This document shows, piece by piece, positions 6,831 to 24,961 of a stretch of 26,363 bases of DNA; the stretch's first letter is position 1; each line of letters begins with the position of its first letter. The notes beneath the pieces were generated by a model. That model did no database searches, was not told the DNA's origin, and saw only the letters and a list, made by a program, of their open reading frames with translations. The stretch spans positions 1-26,363 of IMG/VR virus record IMGVR_UViG_3300006874_000113. One strand, 5' to 3'. Position numbers and translations under genes: made by a program. This DNA comes from a virus.

Positions 6831-7382
6831 ATGATTGGTATTAGCCAGATTATACAAGGTGCTATTTCTCCTGTCTCTGATATTATCACGAAATTGATAA
6901 CTAAAAAAGAGGATAGAATGTTAGCAGAAGCAGAATTAAAACAGATCCAAGCAGATCTTGAAAAGAAAATTATTGAGCATCAAACAAATACATTGAATGC
7001 TCAAAAAGAAATTATTGTTGCTGAAGTTACAGGCTCGCCTATGCAACGTAATTGGAGACCAGCTTTAATGTGGGTAATTATCCTTATCATTGCAAATAAT
7101 TATTTACTTGCTCCGATATTGAATAATTTCATTGCATTGTTTGGTCCATCTGACTTATTACCTATTTTGGAATTACCAGATAAATTGTTTAATCTAATGA
7201 CTATCGGTCTAGGTGGATATGTTGCTGGTAGAACTGTTGAAAAAGTTGCTCCACAGTTTTTTGCAAAAACAGATAAAGAAACAGTTATAGATGCTACTCC
7301 TATTGAAGTTAGTGAAGGGGAAACTAAAACCGAAAATAAACCTAGATTTAAAGGTAGACCGTTACCTATTTCTAGAGTCTAA
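6831..7382 (+). CDS. Holin of the three-TM family (GTA-holin type)
   Basis: 183 aa. Residues 1-20 form an amphipathic helix, 25-65 a charged coiled coil, then the hallmark RNWRPALMW (73-81) runs into a membrane segment (about 78-102). A second hydrophobic stretch at 116-135 ends in GGYVAGRTVEK (128-138). This order matches the 'Holin of 3TMs' family known from gene transfer agents and many phages. Such holins form membrane lesions that start lysis. The C-terminal 40 residues are polar and basic. It is one of only three plus-strand genes and overlaps the convergent gene by 11 bp. A candidate terminator follows inside that neighbour. No endolysin is visible in the window. Confidence 0.85.
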   Translation: MIGISQIIQGAISPVSDIITKLITKKEDRMLAEAELKQIQADLEKKIIEHQTNTLNAQKEIIVAEVTGSPMQRNWRPALMWVIILIIANNYLLAPILNNFIALFGPSDLLPILELPDKLFNLMTIGLGGYVAGRTVEKVAPQFFAKTDKETVIDATPIEVSEGETKTENKPRFKGRPLPISRV

Positions 7383-7790: not shown

Positions 7791-7980
7791 CTAATAGGAT
7801 TTCATTTTTGTTGGTTGGTGGATATAATTTTTCATAACAGTTTTGACATAGCTGACCACACCCTTCTATGTAAAAATGTCTGTAATCAATATGTGTGTTC
7901 TCTGTGTATGGTGTTTCAGCATCACATGTTACACATTTATCCAATTTGACCTCTTCAACTTCGTTTAGTATTTCGTTCAT
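7786..7980 (-). CDS. Small zinc-ribbon protein, 64 aa
   Basis: Two CxxC knuckles, Cys16/Cys19 and Cys45/Cys48, with an extra Cys41 and His30/His35 between them, are spaced as in a zinc ribbon. Their likely role is to hold one zinc ion. Small proteins of this kind occur throughout phage genomes, and the partner (nucleic acid or protein) is unknown. The ATG overlaps the stop of the fibre gene upstream (ATGA, 7977-7980), so it is probably translated by coupling with that gene. Confidence 0.75.
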   Translation of the reverse strand: MNEILNEVEEVKLDKCVTCDAETPYTENTHIDYRHFYIEGCGQLCQNCYEKLYPPTNKNEILLG

Positions 7981-9221
7981 ATCGCTTTATAATATTCTAA
8001 TATAACAACCCCGTCTTTTCCAGTAAAATCTCCTGCACTTACTGAATCCATTCCACCCGAACCATATCCATTATTACCAAAATATGATGAAATTCGGGAT
8101 TGGCGATCTTTGGAATTATTATTACGAGCTACACCTGTAGTAATATCGATAACATCCCCTAAAGCAATGCTACTAGGAATAGTATTTGCAGTTGGTGTAT
8201 AGGATGTTGGCATCACAGCTGTTTCACCTCCAACTGCAGTAAATGTTTGAGCAACACCGCTAGAATCATATAATGTAACCGATGTGTTACCTCCTGTAGC
8301 TCCTGCAGTTGTTCCACCAGCTCCTACTGATACCGTAACATCTCTCTTTAGCGGATCGCTAGATACCTTCATGTAAAAGATTAATGTTCCACCAGCATTT
8401 CCTGTATATGATCCATTACCAGCAGAACCTCCACCTTGAACTGTTACTTTTACAACATAACAATTATCCGGTAATGTGAACGACCCAGCTCCAATTGAAC
8501 TGAATATTTTTAAATGAGGCAAACCACCCCAAGTAATACGACCATCATATCCGGTATTAACTAATCCTGCTCCGGATTGATTAGAATTATTTGCATATGG
8601 AGAACTAACTGTAAATTGCTGTAATCCTAATGTTACTGCATCTTGAAAGGTAATAGAACTGATATTATCTGATCCAGAACGACCTAATAAACTATTATTA
8701 CCTATAGCTATCGATAACGGGGTTGCATCATTTGCTGTATTATTACCTACAATCACGTTCGATGGTATTGTAGTAATATTATTCAATTCAATTGTTTTAA
8801 CAGCAACCTTACCAGATGTAAGTTGAATTGTTGTATTATCTGGGAGAACATTTAATTGACCAGAAGAAAGCTCCAATCCAGATCCAACAGTTGCAGCAAG
8901 ACCTATTTGAGTATAACCAGTTGAATCGTTAACGTTACCAGAACCGTCAACATTTCGTGCATATAGACCGGTTCCAGATTTAAAGAAATCACCTGGTTGT
9001 GGTGATTGAGCTCCGATTGTGCTAAAATCAGTTGTTTCGCCAAAGAATTTAATACCGGTGTTAAGTCCACCAACAGTTGATCCATCACCAATAAATAGTC
9101 TTCTAGTATCGGTTGTGTACCCTAATTCACCATCTGCTAGAGTCACCGTTTCTCTTTCCGAATTTGTACCTTTACGTATTAGAGCTCGTATAATTGTACT
9201 GTCTGTTATATTGACTGTCAT
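7977..9221 (-). CDS. Tail fibre protein with Mtd-like N-terminus and glycine-rich tip
   Basis: 414 aa. Residues about 13-52 match the pattern of the Mtd-type N-terminal domain (Bordetella phage major tropism determinant): RKGTNSERE, ADGELGYTTDTRRLFIGDGS, TVGGL. The middle is a Thr/Asn/Ser-rich beta shaft with two 'G(N)N' repeats (IVGNNTANDA, AIGNNSLLG). From about 238 it becomes a glycine-rich domain (SFTLPDNCYVVKVTVQGGG, SVGAGGTTAGATGG), ending GKDGVVILEYYKAI, typical of fibre tips whose polyglycine loops contact receptors. It lies directly downstream of a paralogous 667-aa fibre with the same N-terminal domain. Probable role: host recognition. Which fibre binds the receptor is not shown. 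Confidence 0.8.
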   Translation of the reverse strand: MTVNITDSTIIRALIRKGTNSERETVTLADGELGYTTDTRRLFIGDGSTVGGLNTGIKFFGETTDFSTIGAQSPQPGDFFKSGTGLYARNVDGSGNVNDSTGYTQIGLAATVGSGLELSSGQLNVLPDNTTIQLTSGKVAVKTIELNNITTIPSNVIVGNNTANDATPLSIAIGNNSLLGRSGSDNISSITFQDAVTLGLQQFTVSSPYANNSNQSGAGLVNTGYDGRITWGGLPHLKIFSSIGAGSFTLPDNCYVVKVTVQGGGSAGNGSYTGNAGGTLIFYMKVSSDPLKRDVTVSVGAGGTTAGATGGNTSVTLYDSSGVAQTFTAVGGETAVMPTSYTPTANTIPSSIALGDVIDITTGVARNNNSKDRQSRISSYFGNNGYGSGGMDSVSAGDFTGKDGVVILEYYKAI

Positions 9222-9222
9222 A

Positions 9223-11226
9223 TTATCTAAATTTTAAAAGTGTTGCAACATTTACTGTCGTTGAATTATCATCTACCAATGTTTGTTGTGTCTTACCTGG
9301 TATTACTAAACTTGTTTGTGGTATTGTAGATGGTGATGCGACCTTAAATGCATTGTAAAATGATCCTTGTAAAGCAGATACATTTGGTGTACCAGGTGTA
9401 CTATTAGGAGTTACTGTTAGAGTGCTACCTAATCCTACCGTTCTTCTATTAACAACTCCATCTGTATATCCTGGATTAACTGAAGTAAATGTCATTGTTG
9501 GTGATGAATATGAAACTGTATAAACTGTTGAAAAATAAGCATTACCTTGAAGAGCAGTAACAGTTGACGCTGCTAAATCATCTGCAGTTGCATCACCAGA
9601 TATATCTACTTCAATGAAAATGGTTTGATAACCATAATGTTGATATACTTCGGAGATCGTTGGAGCTGCAGTTCCTCCGGTATAGTCATACCAAACACAA
9701 AACCTATTACCATTAGTGTCATACAATAAGAGATACTTACCATCCAATGCAGCAGATGGTGTTGGAAAATTAGCAACTGTATGCACTGCAGCAACTCCAT
9801 TTACCGTAAATGTTTGGGTTGTTGTATTTAATATCAACCAACCAAACATTGCTGCTGATATGGTTCCGGAACCTTCATCACCAGCTGAGTACCCAGAACC
9901 AGATTTAGATTCATAATTATGAGAATTACCATATGTGACTGCGGCATCTCCAATAGCGGAACCACCGCCCTCTGAAAAGGTTTCATTAAAAGTGGTTGTA
10001 TATCCTCTAACTAAATTATGGATGTATATATCACCAATATTAGTTGTATCGTTCCATGCTTCAAATACACGCTCACCTTTTGTATTTTCAATTGAATTAA
10101 CAGCTGCAACAATATTTGAAATTAAAGTTGCTTGAGTTGCATCATAATCACAAGCAACAACAGTTAATTCAGGATGAGCTGCAATATACGCATCTAATGC
10201 TGTATCATCTCCAGGTGTTTGTATAAAGATTGAATACATCGTTCCATCTCCAGATGGAACTAACATACTTTTATCTTGATAATTTGCTGTACTCATATTA
10301 GTGCCAACACCACTCAAACTAATATTGCTAAATGATCCTTGATTGGTAATATAACTAGTTGGTACAGCAGAGTTAATAATTGTTCCTGGAAAATCTTCAC
10401 GATTTAAGAAAAATGATGGCGTTGTTAGTTCGTGTCCGGATAAAACTTGAACGGTTGATCCTACTTCACCTAAATATCGCCTCACTTCATTTGAATATTG
10501 AGCTGATGAAGCTGTAATTGCTCCGGTTAATCTCGATGCATCAATTTTAGTTGCTGTTGAGCGATTAACACCGGTCATCAATAGATTTGCATCTGCATCA
10601 GATGCAATGGGATATGTTGGAGCAGTACCTAATTTAACTTTATCTGCACTAGACATAAACCCGGGGGTTGAAGTAGTTGCATTGGCATGGTGTTGAGTTG
10701 CGGTGGATGTATCGATATATCCGAGACCACCATGAGAAATATCTGTCAACTTCCCGACTTCTAATGCACCGGCATTAAATCCCAAGAATGCTAATGTTTG
10801 AGCATCACCAGCTAAATCGATTTCAGGACCAGAACCACCAATTACCAAACCATCACCGACTGATGAAATAGTAACAGCAGATGGGTCGACATAGAGTTTA
10901 TTATCAGAATTGTATTTAATTGTAGAATTATCAACCCGTGGACTTAAAGCTAACCAATGTTCGGGGTTTGAGTAATCGGATCCAGATAAACAATAAAAGA
11001 TATTATTTTCAAATACAAAATCACCTACTTCTGCATTAGTAGATGTTGCAGAATTTACAAGAAAATTCTTAGCACCAGCAGAAATACCACCTAGTGTTGT
11101 TCCATCGCCAACGTATAACCGTTTAGTATCTGTAGTAAACCCGGGTTCGCCTGAATTAAGTATTACCTGTTTACGATCTAAATTTACACCTCTACGAAAT
11201 TTAATTTTAGATGCATTTACTTGCAT
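9223..11226 (-). CDS. Large tail fibre protein with Mtd-like N-terminus
   Basis: 667 aa from the ATG at 11226. A longer reading to 11232 needs TTG and would destroy the 6-nt spacing to the CTAAATA box. Residues about 7-50 repeat the module of the neighbouring fibre (KFRRGVNLDRKQ, GEPGFTTDTKRLYVGDGTTLGG). The remainder is beta-rich, low in charge and rich in Thr, Ser, Asn and Gly. Around 180-200 a segment (HHANATTSTPGFMSSADKVKLG) matches the short motif common to trimeric phage fibre shafts. No catalytic or lectin motif is recognised in the C-terminal 300 residues. It is followed by the second fibre with one base between the genes, so the two are made together. Confidence 0.8.
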   Translation of the reverse strand: MQVNASKIKFRRGVNLDRKQVILNSGEPGFTTDTKRLYVGDGTTLGGISAGAKNFLVNSATSTNAEVGDFVFENNIFYCLSGSDYSNPEHWLALSPRVDNSTIKYNSDNKLYVDPSAVTISSVGDGLVIGGSGPEIDLAGDAQTLAFLGFNAGALEVGKLTDISHGGLGYIDTSTATQHHANATTSTPGFMSSADKVKLGTAPTYPIASDADANLLMTGVNRSTATKIDASRLTGAITASSAQYSNEVRRYLGEVGSTVQVLSGHELTTPSFFLNREDFPGTIINSAVPTSYITNQGSFSNISLSGVGTNMSTANYQDKSMLVPSGDGTMYSIFIQTPGDDTALDAYIAAHPELTVVACDYDATQATLISNIVAAVNSIENTKGERVFEAWNDTTNIGDIYIHNLVRGYTTTFNETFSEGGGSAIGDAAVTYGNSHNYESKSGSGYSAGDEGSGTISAAMFGWLILNTTTQTFTVNGVAAVHTVANFPTPSAALDGKYLLLYDTNGNRFCVWYDYTGGTAAPTISEVYQHYGYQTIFIEVDISGDATADDLAASTVTALQGNAYFSTVYTVSYSSPTMTFTSVNPGYTDGVVNRRTVGLGSTLTVTPNSTPGTPNVSALQGSFYNAFKVASPSTIPQTSLVIPGKTQQTLVDDNSTTVNVATLLKFR

Positions 11227-11232
11227 ATTCAA

Positions 11233-12372: not shown

Positions 12373-12380
12373 TATTTATA
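12373..12380 (-). promoter_or_regulatory. Late-promoter-like box TATAAATA
   Basis: Exact T4-late-type core overlapping the TAA stop of the portal gene. It is followed by TAGATGCA and the ATG at 12364 (8-nt gap). It shares the string TATAAATATAGATG with the box before the protease gene at 15939. Confidence 0.5.
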
Positions 12381-14145
12381 CAGCTGGTGGTGGTTCTTCT
12401 TGAGTTGGAGGTACTGGTTCTTCAGCACCAGTAACATCGGGTCCGCCTTCTCCTGGAGGTGGTCCAAAATCTGGTGGAAGACCGCCACCCATTGGCGCTG
12501 CACCTCCCATAGCCCCCATACCTGGTTCAAGCCCTTCACCTTGTTCTCCACCTGCAACCATAACATCTCTCCAATTTGGTCCAGAGGATTCAATTTGCAT
12601 TAATTCCCATTGAAGTTCTTTATCTCTTCTCAACATTTCCCGATTTGCTTTGATTTCAATATCAGTCCAATTGAGATATTTCTTTTGAGCCCATGTATTT
12701 GAAACAAATTCACTACTAGTTAAAGAGGTCCAATTATTAACTCGTAATTCGAGTTTTTGTTGTTCTCTCATTTCAAAGAAGTTAGACGGTACATTAAATG
12801 CGACATCTAATTGAGTTTCTTTGAGCTTATATTTATCCCATAGTTTCTTTAATTTTAAGTGTGTAATGAACCCATTTTTTAAACCTGCAGCAAACTGCAT
12901 TTGCAAACGAATAATAAATCTAGCAAATTTCAGCTCTTCCCTTAAAATATCAACACCATCTTGAAACGACTGTTCTGGATTAAGTCTAGTTACAGGTACT
13001 TTAAGAGATTTGTATAATTTCTTCATGAAATACATCAAATCTTCTAATTCACCTAAATTTTGTCCTCCCGCTAATGTAGTAACAGATGTACCTTCACTCC
13101 CAGCACGTTTAGCAAACCAAAACGAATCCAACATAGACTGGGGGGAAAATTTCTGGACTGTTCCGTTTTGATCTTGATCGTATGTATGCCGACTCCAATA
13201 TTTTTGCTGAAGAGATCGTAAATAACCTTCAGCTTTCGGTGGAGACATATTACCTACGTCAACATTAAATACGAGCTTTTCTGGAGCACGAACTAACCTA
13301 TAAATAACTATTGCATCTTCAATTAATGATAATTGTCGATAAGCTCTTCTAGCATTTTCAAGGTATGGTAATCGAATTGTTTTATTATCATTCCAGATAC
13401 CAGAATTGATATATGTAACTTGATTCTTATCCATCGGGATAAGTTGCATATCTTCAATTTTAGTTGGATTTTCTTCGTTGAAAACTGGCTTTCTTAATAG
13501 GAATCCTTGGATAATACTGTTTTGAATATTACCAAATATCGGGTCAATTAATTCTGTTGGTATTTGAACAACACCTAAAATACCTTCATGTGGGTACTCT
13601 TTATGAATAATATGTTCCCAATATACTTCTCCTTCAACTAATAATTGTCTAAAATATTCCCACCCTTTATGTTCAAAATCAAAGTAATTAACGAATGTTT
13701 GAAATTCTTTTTGTAAACATTCCTGGTGATCAGTTTTAAATTCTCTTTGAATGAAATTCAATTTCAAAATATCTCCATTGATATCTTTATTGATAATTTC
13801 ATCACAAATTTCATCTAATGCATCACCAACCTCAGCAAATGCTGCCATAACCCGGTAATCTCGAATTCTAGCTGCTTTATCCTGTTGGATATTAGCATAC
13901 ATGTATTCTTGAAACCCTTTATCCATTGCGATATCACCAACAGATGAGTTGTTAACTTGTGTAGATGATGATATTGACTGTCGTTGTAATGCATCTTCAC
14001 GGCGACTGCCTTCACCTTGAAATAATTTGTATTTTGGGTTTACATCAGATAATGTTTCGACTGTTTGATATGATTGATATGGAAGCCTGCTTTGAACAAA
14101 CTTCATCATTGATCTGCCGAAAGTGTTTTTATTTCCTTGTCCCAT
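12376..14145 (-). CDS. 20: Portal vertex protein, T4 gp20-like
   Basis: 589 aa (T4 gp20 is 524). The family signature is strong: IYRLVRAPEKLVFNVDVGNM (281-300), PKAEGYLR, a QSMLDSFWFAKRAGSEGT block (336-353), TTLAGGQNLGELEDL (356-370), YFMKKLYKSLKVPVTRL (372-388). It would form the dodecameric ring at the capsid vertex through which DNA is packaged. The clip, wing and stem regions appear complete. The last ~65 residues are a Gly/Pro-rich tail (GGGLPPDFGPPPGEGG) absent from T4 gp20, probably disordered. It starts nine bases after the protease gene stop. In T4 the sheath and tube genes 18 and 19 lie just upstream. Here a serine protease does. Confidence 0.95.
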   Translation of the reverse strand: MGQGNKNTFGRSMMKFVQSRLPYQSYQTVETLSDVNPKYKLFQGEGSRREDALQRQSISSSTQVNNSSVGDIAMDKGFQEYMYANIQQDKAARIRDYRVMAAFAEVGDALDEICDEIINKDINGDILKLNFIQREFKTDHQECLQKEFQTFVNYFDFEHKGWEYFRQLLVEGEVYWEHIIHKEYPHEGILGVVQIPTELIDPIFGNIQNSIIQGFLLRKPVFNEENPTKIEDMQLIPMDKNQVTYINSGIWNDNKTIRLPYLENARRAYRQLSLIEDAIVIYRLVRAPEKLVFNVDVGNMSPPKAEGYLRSLQQKYWSRHTYDQDQNGTVQKFSPQSMLDSFWFAKRAGSEGTSVTTLAGGQNLGELEDLMYFMKKLYKSLKVPVTRLNPEQSFQDGVDILREELKFARFIIRLQMQFAAGLKNGFITHLKLKKLWDKYKLKETQLDVAFNVPSNFFEMREQQKLELRVNNWTSLTSSEFVSNTWAQKKYLNWTDIEIKANREMLRRDKELQWELMQIESSGPNWRDVMVAGGEQGEGLEPGMGAMGGAAPMGGGLPPDFGPPPGEGGPDVTGAEEPVPPTQEEPPPAV

Positions 14146-14154
14146 ATAATGTAA

Positions 14155-15933
14155 TTATGCTAATTGTTTCCAAATATTAACTCTATTAATAGTACCATCA
14201 CCACCTAATTGACTGTTAATTACTGACTGCACCTCATTTAAAAAGGCTGTTTGAGCGTAATTTGGTCCTGTAACTATAGTATGTGTCATAGATAGAAGTA
14301 ATATGTCGCTGTTATAAACTAAAAACCACGGGTTACCACTATCTCCTGAAGATAACCCGGATGGAAACCATAATGTACGATCTGGTAATAACGTACAAGC
14401 TGTACTTAAATTAGTTGTAGTATTTAAGGTAATTCGGTTACCCCCAGATGTTGAACCACAAGACCATGGTAATATTTGGTTATTTAATCCTACAGCAAAT
14501 GCATTGTCTAAGCATGTTGTTGTTCCAAAAGATCTACCGCCACCTACAATAATAGGAAATGAAAATGCAGGTATGGATTCACCTCCAGAAAAGTTTTTCA
14601 GTTCTGCAAATTTATATATTTTAATATCCGGGTCAGTAATAGGAGCAGCTAATTTACCAATAGCAACATCAGTATAATACCCATTTAATACAGAAGTCTG
14701 ATTAAAATAACATCCTTGTAAACCGGCACTATTTGTTGCAAAACAATCAATCGTAGCTTTTACACGATTACCGTCTGGTTTAATAAAATTGATATCATAC
14801 CCTGTAATTAAACCACCATATTGAGAATCCCCGAGTACTGTATTATGCGGTGTATTATGAGCAGCTACCAGAAAATGTCGATCGGTAATCATAATGTAAT
14901 TTGAAAACTCAACATTTAAAGTACATGCTCCGTTTTGGTAGAAGGTTGAACTGTTTCCACAACATGTTACAGGTGAAAATGACTCTGCAGTTAAACACGT
15001 ATAACATGCTGCGTATGATACACCTGACACATTAACAATATTTCTATTTGGATACACCCATGAAGATGTATTGATATTACCACCACTACAATTGATATAA
15101 TTATATGTAAATGAATTTGCTGCGGTAATAGAACTAACCGAATTTAATCCAAAACAATTAAACGTTGTATTTGTGTTATTTACAAACGGTGTATAACAAT
15201 CTATGTATCCGCATGTAGTCTCGCTAGTAGTAATTGATGGAGTTAAAGATACTGACGGTGTTCTACTTCTAGTTGGTGTTGGGTACGGTGATGGTGTTTG
15301 AGATCTTGTCGGTGTAACACAACAAGATGGTGATGATTGCGATGTCGGTGATTTAGATTGTGTCTGTGTTGGTGTTCTAGTATAGGTATATGTCGGTGTT
15401 GGTGTTACTCCATCACTCTTCGTCGGTGTTTGGGTTTTGGTTTGTGTTCTTGTTGGTGTTTCGGTTAAAGTACATGTAATTGTAGATGTTTTTGTTCTCG
15501 TTTGAGTGGCTGTCGAACTGTGTGTAAGACTAATTGTTATAGTTGGTGTTCTTGTTGGTGTTTGTGTTTTTGTTTGTGTTCTTGTAGGTGTTTGGGTCCT
15601 CGTTTCTGTTATAGTTGGTGTTTGAGTCCGGGTACTTGTTGGTGTTTGAGTATAAGTCTTGGTATATGTCGGGGTTAATGGTGGTGTGTTTGATCTTGTT
15701 ACAGTCCTAGTATTTGTTTGTGTGATCGTTCCTGTTATCGTTGGTGTTACTGCTGATGTACCGGTTTTAGTCGGCGATGGTGTTATTGTCGTTGTTGGTG
15801 ATGGTGTATAAACAAATGATGTTGATGGAGTTACAGCTGGTATGCCGTGAACATTTGCTTTAGCCCAGTTTGATCCATATTGAGGACCGCCTGCGCTATT
15901 AACAAGATCTCTAAATGTAGGTATTTGAGCCAC
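14155..15933 (-). CDS. Thr/Pro-rich stalk fused to a chymotrypsin-fold serine protease
   Basis: 592 aa, start GTG at 15933 (an ATG two bases earlier is out of frame). There is no signal peptide. Residues 1-34 may be an anchoring module. Residues 35-240 are a stalk with about 80 Thr in 206 positions, often every second residue (TQTPTRTQTKTQTPTRTPT). Residues 241-345 hold nine Cys, including C310-C313 and a CC pair at 324-325. The rest reads as an S1-type protease: VAAHN with His359, a DVAIGKL segment with Asp422, and SSGDSGNPW with Ser532, the triad order and rough spacing of trypsin relatives (Ser532 equals Ser195). Gapless alignment puts Gly at position 189, so trypsin-like Lys/Arg cleavage is not expected. 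Neighbours are portal and tail genes. Likely a virion-surface or assembly protease. The target is unknown. Confidence 0.85.
   Translation of the reverse strand: MAQIPTFRDLVNSAGGPQYGSNWAKANVHGIPAVTPSTSFVYTPSPTTTITPSPTKTGTSAVTPTITGTITQTNTRTVTRSNTPPLTPTYTKTYTQTPTSTRTQTPTITETRTQTPTRTQTKTQTPTRTPTITISLTHSSTATQTRTKTSTITCTLTETPTRTQTKTQTPTKSDGVTPTPTYTYTRTPTQTQSKSPTSQSSPSCCVTPTRSQTPSPYPTPTRSRTPSVSLTPSITTSETTCGYIDCYTPFVNNTNTTFNCFGLNSVSSITAANSFTYNYINCSGGNINTSSWVYPNRNIVNVSGVSYAACYTCLTAESFSPVTCCGNSSTFYQNGACTLNVEFSNYIMITDRHFLVAAHNTPHNTVLGDSQYGGLITGYDINFIKPDGNRVKATIDCFATNSAGLQGCYFNQTSVLNGYYTDVAIGKLAAPITDPDIKIYKFAELKNFSGGESIPAFSFPIIVGGGRSFGTTTCLDNAFAVGLNNQILPWSCGSTSGGNRITLNTTTNLSTACTLLPDRTLWFPSGLSSGDSGNPWFLVYNSDILLLSMTHTIVTGPNYAQTAFLNEVQSVINSQLGGDGTINRVNIWKQLA
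15214..15831 (-). repeat. Degenerate Thr/Pro codon repeat (stalk of the protease)
   Basis: The minus strand encodes an irregular T-x-T-P repeat over about 206 codons. On the plus strand this appears as runs of GTTGGTGTTTGTGTT-like units. Units differ in length and in the residue between threonines, so it is a diverged low-complexity tract and not a recent exact tandem duplication. Such tracts change length easily by slippage. Confidence 0.85.
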
Positions 15934-15938
15934 ATCTA

Positions 15939-15946
15939 TATTTATA
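15939..15946 (-). promoter_or_regulatory. Late-promoter-like box TATAAATA before the protease
   Basis: Exact T4-late-type core, then TAGAT, then the GTG start at 15933 (5-nt gap). It lies in the outgoing arm of the hairpin at 15940-15981, so the protease gene seems to be set off as its own transcription unit. Confidence 0.55.
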
Positions 15947-15981: not shown

Positions 15982-16485
15982 TTATGCTCCAGCGGAGGGA
16001 GTTGGTGTCATAGGTACATTTTTAGATTGAATATAATATGGGGTTGCTGATTCATCCGGAAATACGATATACCCACCAGGACCTGTTATGATAAACTTAA
16101 AGTGACCTACAGCTAAACCAGACAACGCTCCTAAATTAACTTGAACTGAACTACTATTTGCTGAAAAATAAACAGTTCCTCCTAAATCTACTAGATTATA
16201 CCCTTGAAATGTTGGATACTTAGCAGATAACGATGGGATATTTGAGTAATACGTTACACTACTTAAATTTACACTTGATAACGACCCCGTTAAAAATGTA
16301 GAAATATCACTTGCACTTAAATAGATTTGATATAGGGAATCTCTTCCAATAGTATCTCCACTAACCCCATCATATTGAAGCTTGTTAATTAATGGTGTTC
16401 GAAAAACAAATGATTTTTGAAATTCACTAAAAATTAATTTGTTTGGATCTGTATTGGATTTATAAATTTTAAAACCGTATTTCAT
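15982..16485 (-). CDS. Hypothetical structural-region protein, 167 aa
   Basis: Not recognised. Start placed at the ATG at 16485, one base past the stop of the gp15-like gene (TAA-T-ATG). A reading to 16503 needs a TTG inside that gene. The sequence is beta-rich and high in Ser, Tyr and Leu (IYLSASDISTFLTGSLSSVNLSSVTYYSN), with a GPGGYIVFP turn, and ends TPTPSAGA, a short echo of the Thr/Pro stalk encoded next. Coupling to the tail terminator gene suggests a neck, tail or head-fibre role. Nothing more can be shown. Confidence 0.75.
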   Translation of the reverse strand: MKYGFKIYKSNTDPNKLIFSEFQKSFVFRTPLINKLQYDGVSGDTIGRDSLYQIYLSASDISTFLTGSLSSVNLSSVTYYSNIPSLSAKYPTFQGYNLVDLGGTVYFSANSSSVQVNLGALSGLAVGHFKFIITGPGGYIVFPDESATPYYIQSKNVPMTPTPSAGA

Positions 16486-16486
16486 A

Positions 16487-17284
16487 TTATTGAGATAATT
16501 CAAAAGCTTCTATTTCTTGTGGTGTTGCAGATACCGATACCGTATCAGTAATATTAGGTATACCAGATAATTCGGATCTTAATGTTGGATAATTATCTAA
16601 TGTTAGGACGGTTCCAGTACCTTCTAAGCCACTAACAGCATAAAAATTAGATGTAACTGTATAGATATTTCCAATATCATTTTCTGCTGCTGGAAAGATC
16701 CAACCTTTTATTACAAAAGTAGTATCTGCTGTAACTCGAGCTTTATCAGTTGCATTTAATTCTACTGGGTAATTCAAACTTATATCACCAGACCATAAAA
16801 CCTCGCTTCGAATTTCTTGTTTTTGAGATAAACCAGTAATATCAGCTGGGACTGGCCAACTAATAATAATATACGGATTGGTATATGGAATAAAATTTGA
16901 AATAATTTGATCCATATCTAATTGATATCTAGTTATAATCGAAAAATTTATAGTGATATTAACTGGAACAGGTGAATTGTAAGTATTAGAAGAACTTTCA
17001 TTTGCGTAATAAAATCCACCTAGGTCATGAATTTTGTTAAAAACTCTCTCATTATCACGGGTAACACTAGCAACACTAATTGCCACTGCTGGGAGAGTAA
17101 TTGTTTTAGCTTTATTAATAATATCGTACAGAACACGTTGTTTTGGAGCATATAGATATCGTACAAAAATTCTATCCTTTTCTTCCCTATTTTTATTGTA
17201 TCTTCCGATAACAATACTATCAAATGCATTTGCAAATTGAATAATAAGGTCTTGAATTTCGAAGTATGTTGACCTAAATCTCAT
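16487..17284 (-). CDS. 15: Tail sheath terminator/stabiliser, T4 gp15-like
   Basis: 265 aa (T4 gp15 is 272). The colinear signature includes an N-terminal RFRSTYFEIQDLIIQFANAF helix, VRYLYAPKQRVLYDI, TITLPAVAISVAS, then the central INFSIITRYQLDMDQIISNF, equivalent to the 'ELSIFTRYEDDM' region of T4 gp15, followed by TDKARVTADTTFVIKGWIFP matching the 'RIEWSLTFEVNGWMYP' region. gp15 forms a hexameric ring that ends the tail tube and sheath and joins them to the head. TTAAATA ends 6 nt before the ATG. Its start faces the divergent GIY-YIG-like gene with only 15 bp between start codons. In T4 it is followed by 16-17-18-19, which are not in this window. Confidence 0.85.
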   Translation of the reverse strand: MRFRSTYFEIQDLIIQFANAFDSIVIGRYNKNREEKDRIFVRYLYAPKQRVLYDIINKAKTITLPAVAISVASVTRDNERVFNKIHDLGGFYYANESSSNTYNSPVPVNITINFSIITRYQLDMDQIISNFIPYTNPYIIISWPVPADITGLSQKQEIRSEVLWSGDISLNYPVELNATDKARVTADTTFVIKGWIFPAAENDIGNIYTVTSNFYAVSGLEGTGTVLTLDNYPTLRSELSGIPNITDTVSVSATPQEIEAFELSQ

Positions 17285-21685: not shown

Positions 21686-21751
21686 CTATTTTTGTGTGTA
21701 AAAAATATCACCAATACCACCTGGTTGCTTTATTGTTAATGTTTTATGCAT
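21686..21751 (-). pseudogene. Truncated glycosyltransferase N-terminus (GT9-like remnant)
   Basis: A 21-codon frame, MHKTLTIKQPGGIGDIFYTQ then K and TAG, starts in the tail of the GT11 gene (ATG at 21751, GT11 stop at 21746-21744). Its KTLTIKQPGGIGDI resembles the first strand and glycine loop of GT9 (heptosyltransferase-type) enzymes, which begin 'LIVR.GALGD'. The 8-nt overlap with its neighbour equals the style of the cassette, so it looks like the start of a fifth transferase whose body was deleted. Beyond the TAG, reading on gives only ten codons to TAA. A chance short frame cannot be excluded. Confidence 0.5.
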
Positions 21752-22529
21752 CTAAAATAGTCCAGTCTTTATCATATAAATCTTTAAAATCGGGTCCTTC
21801 TGGTCCAAACCACGGATTTGGAGCAATAATCTTTTCTTTTTTCTTACCAAGATAACTTGCCCATGCAGCGAATGTACTGTTACCCATAATAATTGAATCG
21901 CAATAGCTCAATGTTATGAAATCATTAATTTCACTATTACCGTTAATGTATATGTTATTATTATCAAACGTAAATTCACTCCGAACTGATTGAAAATCAT
22001 CTGTTGCGTATAAGAAAATGTGGTCTTCAAATAACTCTTTAGCTTTATCGTAATAGCTTTTATTAATTTTGGGATGAATTTTGGGATAATTTAAGTAATC
22101 TCCTCTTCTAATATGAACACCTACAATCTTTTTACCGGTTTGGTCCCTTAATTGATCTAGTTTAGATGTAAACTTGATGTGCTCGTCTTCTTTATATGAG
22201 AACCAATCATTCAATTGGTCTTTATATTTGTTAAAATATTTTGGAGATTGAAAATACCCATCAAATACAACATCTTGTGCATATATTGGAATTGGATTAT
22301 ATGTAAATTTATCCTGCTGTTTGATTACATAATTTGAAGTAATTTTACCAGATAGGAAATTTCTATATAATGTGTCTTTATAGGTTACTGGGTGGCTACC
22401 TTGACCAGCTCCAAATCTTGCTGTATAATCAATAAAAAAACCACACTTCGTACCTAGGGTGTATGCATATATTGCAGCAATTTGATACAATTGATTTCCT
22501 AGTCCGCCTTTTAATAAAACTGTTTTCAT
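21744..22529 (-). CDS. GT11-family (alpha-1,2-fucosyltransferase-like) glycosyltransferase
   Basis: 261 aa. GGLGNQLYQIA at 8-18 and the HIRRGDY block at 139-145 are the hallmarks of GT11 alpha-1,2-fucosyltransferases; the NSTFAAWASYLG stretch (217-228) and APNPWFG complete the nucleotide-sugar (GDP-fucose) site. It would add a fucose to a galactose- or related-sugar end. Overlaps the GT10 gene upstream by four bases (ATGA, 22526-22529). No signal peptide or transmembrane helix, so it acts in the cytoplasm. The acceptor is unknown. It may be a virion protein, phage DNA or the host surface glycan pathway. Confidence 0.85.
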   Translation of the reverse strand: MKTVLLKGGLGNQLYQIAAIYAYTLGTKCGFFIDYTARFGAGQGSHPVTYKDTLYRNFLSGKITSNYVIKQQDKFTYNPIPIYAQDVVFDGYFQSPKYFNKYKDQLNDWFSYKEDEHIKFTSKLDQLRDQTGKKIVGVHIRRGDYLNYPKIHPKINKSYYDKAKELFEDHIFLYATDDFQSVRSEFTFDNNNIYINGNSEINDFITLSYCDSIIMGNSTFAAWASYLGKKKEKIIAPNPWFGPEGPDFKDLYDKDWTILDA

Positions 22530-23356
22530 TCAAATAAAAATGGGTAATTCTCAAAAATCCAATCTTCTGGAACTCTATAATCTTCAACTAAATTAAAGTT
22601 TTCATCAACAGCGTTAATACATTTATTGTATGACTTTCTATCAATGTTCAATAAAATATCATCTAATTCTTGAAGGTTTGTGAAAAATAATATTCCATCC
22701 GGATTAAAATACTTACTTACAGATTCTTTATCTCCATAATAGATAGGGATTGTTTTAGTTGCAAAACAATCTAATAGCTTTTCAGTCCAATAACCTGAGA
22801 TAATATCATTTTCAATTGCAATTGAATAATAATATAGAGCTAACCCATCTATTTTATCATCAATTCGATTTCCGGTATAATTACCAAAACAATCGAGTTG
22901 ATCTCGATGAGCATCAATTACGGTATGACGCAATCTATGACCAACAGTCATCCGTTTTTCACTTGCAAAAATACTACAAAGTTTAGTTTTTGGGGTATGT
23001 TGGTAATTTTTTATCCAACATCTACCATGTGGGTAATATATATAGTTTTCTCCTTTATCAAGTAGACTTTTATCGAACGTTAACACAAAGTCAAACAACC
23101 GATTATTTTGTTCAATCCAATTATATGTATGTGGATGAATACTACGAGGTTCTAATATCCAAGCAACCTTACGTTTAACATTAACTGCTTTATGTATGTC
23201 GGTTAAACATAAATCTGTAAGGAAACAAGATTTACTTACCTCTACATTATCTCTACACCATTCAATGTGTTTGGTTGGAGTATCAGCACATGATGATATA
23301 TCATGACTAAAATTTCGATCTCTAATATTAACTTTCTTTTTCATTACATTTGCCAT
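22526..23356 (-). CDS. GT10-family (fucosyltransferase-like) glycosyltransferase
   Basis: 276 aa. The GT10 C-terminal motif is evident: YYYSIAIEN at 175-183, GYWTEKLLDCFATKTIPIYYGD at 188-209, corresponding to the alpha-1,3/4-fucosyltransferase signature in which the Glu of IEN and the Lys of TEK contact GDP-fucose. The N-terminal half is less conserved, as usual. The start could also be the internal ATG at 23344. The longer start overlaps the next gene upstream by 13 bp. Enzymes of this family add fucose, but relatives with other GDP-sugars exist, so donor identity is not certain. Confidence 0.85.
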   Translation of the reverse strand: MANVMKKKVNIRDRNFSHDISSCADTPTKHIEWCRDNVEVSKSCFLTDLCLTDIHKAVNVKRKVAWILEPRSIHPHTYNWIEQNNRLFDFVLTFDKSLLDKGENYIYYPHGRCWIKNYQHTPKTKLCSIFASEKRMTVGHRLRHTVIDAHRDQLDCFGNYTGNRIDDKIDGLALYYYSIAIENDIISGYWTEKLLDCFATKTIPIYYGDKESVSKYFNPDGILFFTNLQELDDILLNIDRKSYNKCINAVDENFNLVEDYRVPEDWIFENYPFLFE

Positions 23357-24153
23357 GTTGTACTATACAAATACAACAACTTGTTATCCATTTTTTCAAC
23401 TAAATTACAAATGTTATTGTTTTGTTTATAATACGGGTTGGTTTCGCGTTCAGCATTCTCGTGATTTATATGAAATATCGGTTTAAATGATCCGCTTAAT
23501 CGACATACCGTATATCCCATTTTGTTAAATCGAATTAATGTCTCGTTGTCTTCATATCCCCATCCAATAAAATTTGGATTAAACCCATTGCAATTAAATA
23601 TGTTACGTTTTTTTGTAATAAAACCACCACCGGGGGATTGGGTATGACCAACATGAATCTTTTCATCATGATAGTTAATGGTATGGTAATAACTCATATT
23701 AATTTGAGCACATAAGTAATTGTAATCCAAATTTTTAACAAACTCGTCTCGGACAGGTTGTTTAATGCAAATAAAATGGCCATCATTAGGTAATATAACT
23801 TTCTTGTTATCTTTTGATAAAATTTCTAGTGTTTCTTCGATTGCTGTTGGACCAAAAATAACATCGACATCATTGAATATCAAATTATCATAAAAGGATT
23901 GTTTAACAGCTTCGTTATATGCTTTCATTTTATTCCAATTATTTGGAATAGAATCTATAACAATATGCCGAACTTTATCGTATTTGGTGAAATCTATTGT
24001 ATGCTGTTTATGTGGTTGTTCAACAACTATAAACTCGTAATTATCGTAATGTTTGTTGTAAAATTCAATCAGAGTTTTAAGATTTAATTCCCGGTCTGCA
24101 CTGTCTTTCCGGTAGAAAACTATTACAGATGAATTTAAATTAATTTTGTCCAT
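23344..24153 (-). CDS. GT-A glycosyltransferase with galactosyltransferase-type C-terminus
   Basis: 269 aa. A Rossmann-like start (SSVIVFYRKDSADRELNL) leads to NDVDVIF at 94-100, the DxD metal site. After it comes the galactosyltransferase C-terminal block: SPGGGFITKKRNIFNCNGF (173-191) and GWGYEDNETLIRF (197-209), where GWGxEDxE is the diagnostic piece of the Glyco_transf_7C domain. Probably transfers galactose or N-acetyl-hexosamine to the growing glycan. It overlaps both adjoining transferase genes (13-14 bp each), so the cassette is one operon. Confidence 0.8.
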   Translation of the reverse strand: MDKINLNSSVIVFYRKDSADRELNLKTLIEFYNKHYDNYEFIVVEQPHKQHTIDFTKYDKVRHIVIDSIPNNWNKMKAYNEAVKQSFYDNLIFNDVDVIFGPTAIEETLEILSKDNKKVILPNDGHFICIKQPVRDEFVKNLDYNYLCAQINMSYYHTINYHDEKIHVGHTQSPGGGFITKKRNIFNCNGFNPNFIGWGYEDNETLIRFNKMGYTVCRLSGSFKPIFHINHENAERETNPYYKQNNNICNLVEKMDNKLLYLYSTTWQM

Positions 24154-24961
24154 GCTTTTCTTTTATTATTTTGATCTTTTCATAAATTACTTGTCTCCCT
24201 TCAGTTGGCACTTCAACTGGTAAGTAACTATGTTTTTCTTTAAAATGGTGTGCTCCGTTAATTATATTAGTTCTCCAATCTTCTCTTGGACGTATCGTTG
24301 AATTATTTTCAGAACAGGCTTGTTCGCCAATATAATCCATCGAATTAGCGAGGTCCGGCCAATACCAATATCCAGGTAAATAGCCAGCTTTCACAATATT
24401 ATATGAATGATCAACATGTTCCCATGCATTTGTATAATTTTCATCAAATATACCAACATCTTCTAAAACCGATTTGTGGTAGTAACAAAACGAACCAACA
24501 CAATGTGTATTATATGCAATCTTAATATCATTTGGATATGGTACCGTAAATAAGGGCATCGGTTTGTTGTTAACTTTGTTTGCTGGTCCGTGATATCCGT
24601 ATAATAAATGCTTCAATCCAGATGTTTTTGATGCCTCAATATACTTTTCAAATACTGTAACATCTTTTATAACCATATCATCTTCAATAATAAAGATATG
24701 GTCACATTGTTGTTCTAGTAATTTTCGAAATAAAATATTTTTAGATTTACCGACACCAAGATTAGTTTTATTGTCAATAAAATCATCAAAAAAGCATCCA
24801 TGAAGGGTGTTTTGATAGTCAAACGGTTCTCCATCATTAACACCTACAATATAATCGATTTTATCTCTTCCTCCTCTAACAAAGAGTGATTTTAATAAGT
24901 TATCAAAAAACTCATTCCTATTACATGTGACTATACCAATACCTATTTTTTCGTTGGTCAT
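24140..24961 (-). CDS. GT2-like GT-A glycosyltransferase
   Basis: 273 aa. IGIGIVTCNRNEFFDNLLKS at 6-25 is the start of a GT-A fold. The DxD-type IIEDDMVIKD lies at 91-100. A later segment, GIFDENYTNAWEHVDHSYN, recalls the ED/H catalytic helix seen in GT2 enzymes. First gene of the four-transferase operon, diverging from the fibre-like gene at 24989 with 27 bp between the start codons. No TAAATA box in canonical form, only TAAAATA then GATTA then ATG. Likely adds the inner sugar, but the order of action cannot be read from the sequence. Confidence 0.8.
   Translation of the reverse strand: MTNEKIGIGIVTCNRNEFFDNLLKSLFVRGGRDKIDYIVGVNDGEPFDYQNTLHGCFFDDFIDNKTNLGVGKSKNILFRKLLEQQCDHIFIIEDDMVIKDVTVFEKYIEASKTSGLKHLLYGYHGPANKVNNKPMPLFTVPYPNDIKIAYNTHCVGSFCYYHKSVLEDVGIFDENYTNAWEHVDHSYNIVKAGYLPGYWYWPDLANSMDYIGEQACSENNSTIRPREDWRTNIINGAHHFKEKHSYLPVEVPTEGRQVIYEKIKIIKEKHGQN

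Follow-up and report, generated by a model that had tools for sequence, protein, structure and literature searches.

The depolymerases of phage tail fibres and tailspikes are enzymatic tips on arms bound to the particle, and their end domains are modular and exchanged horizontally. The enzymatic tips known from phage particles are directed mainly at polysaccharide or peptidoglycan. The locus described here lies in a 26,363-nt window (positions 1 to 26,363 of IMG/VR record IMGVR_UViG_3300006874_000113), a 26-kb fragment of an uncultured T4-like virus with 33% GC. It encodes a probable arm that departs from depolymerase tailspikes in its protease-like rather than polysaccharide-degrading tip, its stalk of alternating threonines and its position between the gp15 and portal genes. 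The T4 prohead protease gp21 (peptidase S77) is also a serine protease that a T4-like phage encodes in the portal region, but it belongs to another family and is a separate gene in relatives, whereas the locus in the window is optional. The S1 (chymotrypsin/trypsin) peptidases of clan PA share with the window domain the AAH, DVAIGKL and GDSG segments and a later Ser segment, in equal order; unlike them, the window domain has no profile match, is led by a Cys-rich segment and is carried on a phage stalk and anchor. Serine protease motifs are likewise found in the NAL1-like, trypsin-fold proteases of PHROG family 20754, which relatives of the window phage encode as a separate gene at the same locus, yet the window domain has no sequence similarity to these enzymes and is fused to the stalk. 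The moraphages are also metagenomic T4-like phages with a portal protein, a UvsW helicase, several glycosyltransferases and a core putative peptidase, but the accessible portion of their description mentions neither a Thr stalk nor a stalk-protease fusion (PMC12619734). We found no description of a stalk-protease of this form in the open literature searched (partial coverage), as the initial annotation of the window had anticipated.

Architecture and gene neighbourhood

The stalk-protease gene (stalk2) spans positions 14155 to 15933 on the minus strand, a strand that the initial annotation had left unnamed when it correctly placed the open reading frame beside the portal gene. It starts with GTG at 15933 and encodes a protein of 592 amino acids made of an anchor, a Thr/Pro stalk, a Cys-rich segment and a protease-like domain; the stop codon ends at 14155, 9 bp ahead of the start (14145) of the gene for the portal protein (T4 gp20 family; 12376 to 14145, minus strand; Portal_T4, E 3.5e-106). 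The gene for the tail sheath stabiliser (T4 gp15 family; 16487 to 17284, minus strand; T4-gp15_tss, E 1.7e-21) is located two genes upstream, and between it and stalk2 lies stalk1 (15982 to 16503, minus strand), which in the window consists of an N-terminal domain with only a TPTP stub and in relatives carries a long Thr/Pro stalk. The matches to Portal_T4, T4-gp15_tss and T4_baseplate identify a T4-like structural region and bear out the virion-gene neighbourhood originally proposed for the protease. The T4 late-promoter consensus TATAAATA is present on the minus strand at 15946, 12380 and 4200, each time 13-16 nt ahead of a start codon, with a distance of 13 nt for the stalk2 start. Because the motif occurs only four times in the window, which is below chance expectation at 33% GC, we set it aside as promoter evidence for stalk2. 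Elsewhere in the window, positions 7977 to 11232 encode two tail-fibre-like proteins that share an Mtd_N (major tropism determinant N-terminal) domain, a Gly-rich domain being present in one of them, and a GTA-type 3TM holin gene (6831 to 7382) lies on the plus strand within a block of minus-strand genes. An attempt at host assignment through relatives of the portal protein returned none in the species genomes searched.

The anchor (residues 1-34; 15832 to 15933, minus strand) has the form MAQIPTFRDL...GSNW...N.HGIP and is conserved in relatives, together with the GTG start; positions I4 P5 T6 F7, D9 L10, G16 P17, W23, N27, G30 and P32 are invariant in an alignment of nine sequences. It is followed by a Thr/Pro stalk (residues 35-240; 15214 to 15831, minus strand) with 81 Thr, 28 Pro and 25 Ser per 206 residues, a dense Thr/Ser/Pro tract of the mucin type. 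The stalk keeps a strict TxTx register, as had been noticed earlier: between residues 43 and 200, Thr occupies 67 of the 79 odd positions and one of the 79 even positions, a parity bias matched by none of 20,000 shuffles. All four Thr codons are in use and tandem repeats in the DNA are only short and weak, which argues against a fresh microsatellite. In relatives, the residues between the threonines vary while the alternating register is retained in both stalk genes, and the stalk-only form of the protein measures 235-240 aa in every phage type except one (284). This constancy of register and length looks like the product of selection on a physical structure rather than of a microsatellite. 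The Cys-rich segment (residues 241-335; 14929 to 15213, minus strand) matches no family. The Cys-rich linker recognized in the initial annotation is real, with 17 Cys in the protein. As also stated there, no signal sequence is visible in the stalk-protease.

Motifs and identity of the protease-like domain

The C-terminal domain (residues 336-592; 14158 to 14928, minus strand) carries in succession VAAHN, DVAIGKLAAP, GDSGNPWF and, later, LLLSMT. The order of these segments agrees with the S1 consensus, and the three S1-type motifs are in the arrangement reported originally, with predicted catalytic residues His359 (codon at 14857 to 14859), Asp422 (14668 to 14670) and Ser532 (14338 to 14340), all on the minus strand. 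When residues 241-592 were shuffled (n = 200,000), a loose version of the motif triple appeared three times and the strict version never. Among 3,367 ORF segments from about 1 Mb of related phage DNA, the loose triple was found only in the stalk-protease and in the separate protease that relatives encode at the same locus. Values of dN 0.036 and dS 0.19 indicate purifying selection on the domain. The only full relative retains all three catalytic residues but is 93% identical and thus adds little weight.

Searches with profiles and structures contributed less. The domain had no Pfam, PDB or PHROG match, and AlphaFold modelled it at a mean pLDDT of only 27.8 from a two-sequence alignment, a low confidence that reflects the lack of homologues. 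The domain was not ranked by a custom S1A profile, which was based on bovine trypsin together with 14 proteases of bacteria and phages; the profile missed the NAL1-like controls as well, so this outcome carries no weight. Protein, profile and DNA-pattern searches of viral contigs, species genomes, phages and plasmids retrieved no homologue of the fused domain beyond contigs L001 and L002, and the flanking triad was absent from 50 other contigs containing TDVAIGK. The fusion thus extends to other phage contigs, as had been suggested for a search, but to these two only, for a total of three with the window. Considering the motifs together with the genuine protease family that relatives encode at this locus, we regard the C-terminal domain of stalk2 as very probably a serine protease. 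From its motifs, the domain is a candidate for the chymotrypsin fold, and catalysis is likely.

The rarity of chymotrypsin-fold proteases in T4-like phages, remarked upon in the initial annotation, fits with the single match that a bovine trypsin query (E 0.01) produced among 50,697 phage records. That match is gp109 of the cultured Rhodococcus phage Shagrat (L167, 57371 to 58144), encoded amid non-structural genes and adjoining a gene annotated as a serine hydrolase.

A probable protease as an optional and exchangeable module

We collected relatives by scanning for the portal and the anchor, using a DNA pattern to locate the anchor genes as their starts are GTG. The same anchor-stalk gene is present in 19 contigs (window included), or about 13 phage types after grouping the near-identical ones, and it directly precedes the portal gene in every contig long enough to reach that position. 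In all contigs except the window, L001 and L002 (near-identical to the window), the gene has no protease domain. Five phage types, L003, L004, L006/L012, L007 and L009, carry instead a separate protease gene just upstream (453-540 codons, with H156, D237 and S355 invariant). The L006 enzyme matches PHROG protease family 20754 (E 1e-17). Its structural model, of moderate confidence (pLDDT 55), is closest to NAL1 of rice, with a Foldseek E of 2.6e-10 and, across 301 residues, Z 18.9 and rmsd 4.9; bacterial alpha-lytic-type proteases come next. Fused and separate proteases never occur together in one contig and have no sequence similarity (hhalign probability 0.15%), and about half of the phage types have no protease beside their stalks. 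A further NAL1-like protease is contained in a 1041-residue frame of contig L028 (G014:68168-70585), from a 209-kb related phage without the stalk locus.

The three states of the locus can be compared within what is nearly one phage. Contigs L001, L004, L005 and L011 have gp15 proteins that are 97-100% identical where present and are 95-100% identical over the 5' 990 nt of the portal gene, and they carry the fused protease (L001), the separate protease (L004) or none (L005 and L011). In L011 (1968-2860), stalk1 has an in-frame TGA within the stalk that near-identical L005 reads through, either a truncated allele or a sequencing error. The L001 stalk follows that of L005 (90%) until nucleotide 686, beyond which the protease cassette stands in place of the stalk end as far as the portal start. 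The exchanged tract that L001 has in common with the window runs from the end of the stalk into the start of the portal gene (14053 to 15218, minus strand; 92.6% of 1169 nt). Synonymous divergence between the two phages is low in the cassette (dS 0.19) and saturated in the flanking genes (dS 1.5-2.7), which demonstrates that the fused protease has recently passed from one diverged phage to another through recombination next to the stalk. The initial annotation, confirmed in its observation and supported in part in its interpretation, was sound on the motifs, the stalk, the virion neighbourhood and a function unlike that of gp21; it missed that the stalk is mostly protease-free, that the protease is exchangeable and that the protease at the same site in relatives is unrelated.

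Neighbouring genes and possible placement on the particle

From its gene neighbourhood, stalk2 is likely to be present on the particle, and its position there is judged from the neighbouring genes only. In relatives, gp15 has a C-terminal extension or is followed by a short gene, and the N-terminal domain of stalk1 weakly resembles these sequences (64.6% probability; 0.1-0.3% for two controls). This resemblance would seat stalk1 at the tail terminator, a placement that we hold with moderate confidence. In some relatives, stalk1 has lectin-like or Gly-rich domains amid Thr/Pro stretches, with matches to Laminin_G_3 in L006 (E 5.9e-24) and to Gly_rich_2 in L003 (E 4.8e-22). In six of the seven separate-protease types, the gene before the protease overlaps or abuts it and has a terminal NQ[IL]Y.[RS]Y tag, which takes a looser form in L009; examples are L004:2522-3484, L006:1891-5904, L055:3767-4966 and L056:4388-4966. 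The tag is absent in L003 and in the loci without a separate protease. That it might serve as a docking or recognition site for the separate protease is only an idea.

The window also contains a row of minus-strand glycosyltransferase genes, with members of the fucosyltransferase families GT11 (21744 to 22529; Glyco_transf_11, E 3.8e-23) and GT10 (22526 to 23356; Glyco_transf_10, E 2.7e-07) and a GT7-type galactosyltransferase-like gene (23344 to 24153; Glyco_transf_7C, E 5.5e-12). Beside the row, the frame at 24140-24961 appears GT2-like by eye, without confirmation by Pfam. The GT7, GT10 and GT11 families match an identical set of nine of 25 records, eight of the 12 with stalk2 and one of the 13 without, although these records are fragments and related by descent. 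There are also stalks without these genes (L003) and the genes without the stalk pattern (L027). Large aquatic T4-like moraphages carry several core glycosyltransferases, and virion glycosylation is cited for mycobacteriophages in the same report (PMC12619734). The glycosyltransferase genes that accompany the stalk, considered with those of moraphages, make O-glycosylation of the stalk plausible.

Probable function of the stalk-protease

The explanation that we favour, at a probability of roughly 55%, is that stalk2 encodes an accessory, probably particle-borne arm with a trypsin-type protease tip that acts outside the capsid. The short N-terminal anchor would fix the protein at the head-tail region, and the long alternating-Thr stalk would keep its end off the surface, where the tip could cut proteins outside the capsid. 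Cutting would most likely take place during adsorption, at the host cell or in its surroundings, and its substrate can only be guessed at. Recombination in or beside the repetitive stalk may then add, remove or swap the protease, and such an optional, mobile module fits a role in interaction with the host or environment rather than in essential head maturation.

The strongest competitor, though an improbable one, is a catalytically dead or otherwise non-proteolytic domain of trypsin fold (or another beta fold) that works as a binding tip, as do phage receptor-binding domains. The lectin-like and Gly-rich domains between the Thr/Pro stretches of stalk1 in relatives are consistent with such a tip, as is the lack of an enzyme-family profile match for the fused domain. 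Against a binding tip stand the presence of all three catalytic motifs in order, the purifying selection on the domain, and the invariant triad of the protease that forms the alternative module at this locus. We judge somewhat less probable still an action inside the cell or at lysis, in which the protease would not be part of the particle and would process phage proteins or attack host proteases. No signal sequence is visible and the trypsin-like gp109 of Shagrat sits among non-structural genes, but the domain is fused to an anchor and stalk that are kept before the portal gene in about 13 types, mostly free of protease, and a free enzyme would hardly need a long stalk whose length is conserved.

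There is only a slim chance that the protease cleaves its own or a neighbouring stalk to release or activate an adhesin tip. The enzyme is joined to long stalk proteins or encoded beside them, and the stalk1-position gene next to the separate protease often ends in the NQ[IL]Y.[RS]Y-like tag; against cleavage, about half of the phage types have stalks without a protease and L003 has no tag. Least probable of all is a head or neck maturation protease that replaces or assists gp21: although the gene adjoins the portal gene and no Peptidase_S77 match was found in the stalk-protease protein or anywhere in the 26-kb record, we rejected this identity because the locus is free of any protease in the near-identical sisters L005 and L011, making an essential role in capsid maturation very unlikely, and because four related records encode a gp21-type S77 protease as a separate gene, in agreement with the distinction from gp21 drawn at the outset.

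Beyond the favoured reading of a particle-borne arm with a protease tip, we tentatively consider a more specific arrangement, which is possible but doubtful in its entirety: a mucin-like stalk, coated with glycans and placed near the neck, with an exchangeable protease tip from two unrelated sources, which are the orphan domain in the fused form and, as a separate protein, a NAL1-like enzyme that may dock through the tag. If true, this would be a particle-tethered proteolysis system of a kind not described before. The exchangeable module is the more interesting aspect of the locus than any single fusion, and the three states among near-identical phages amount to a natural experiment through which its role can be tested. 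The alternating-Thr stalk and the fucosyltransferase-family genes of the same region raise the possibility, also open to test, that the phage makes its own mucin-like decoration. If a protease is displayed on an exposed stalk, it would differ from the enzymatic tips of other phage particles as a means to break through or remodel a layer of protein, such as the S-layer, outer-membrane proteins or adhesion proteins, or to counter the proteases of the host.
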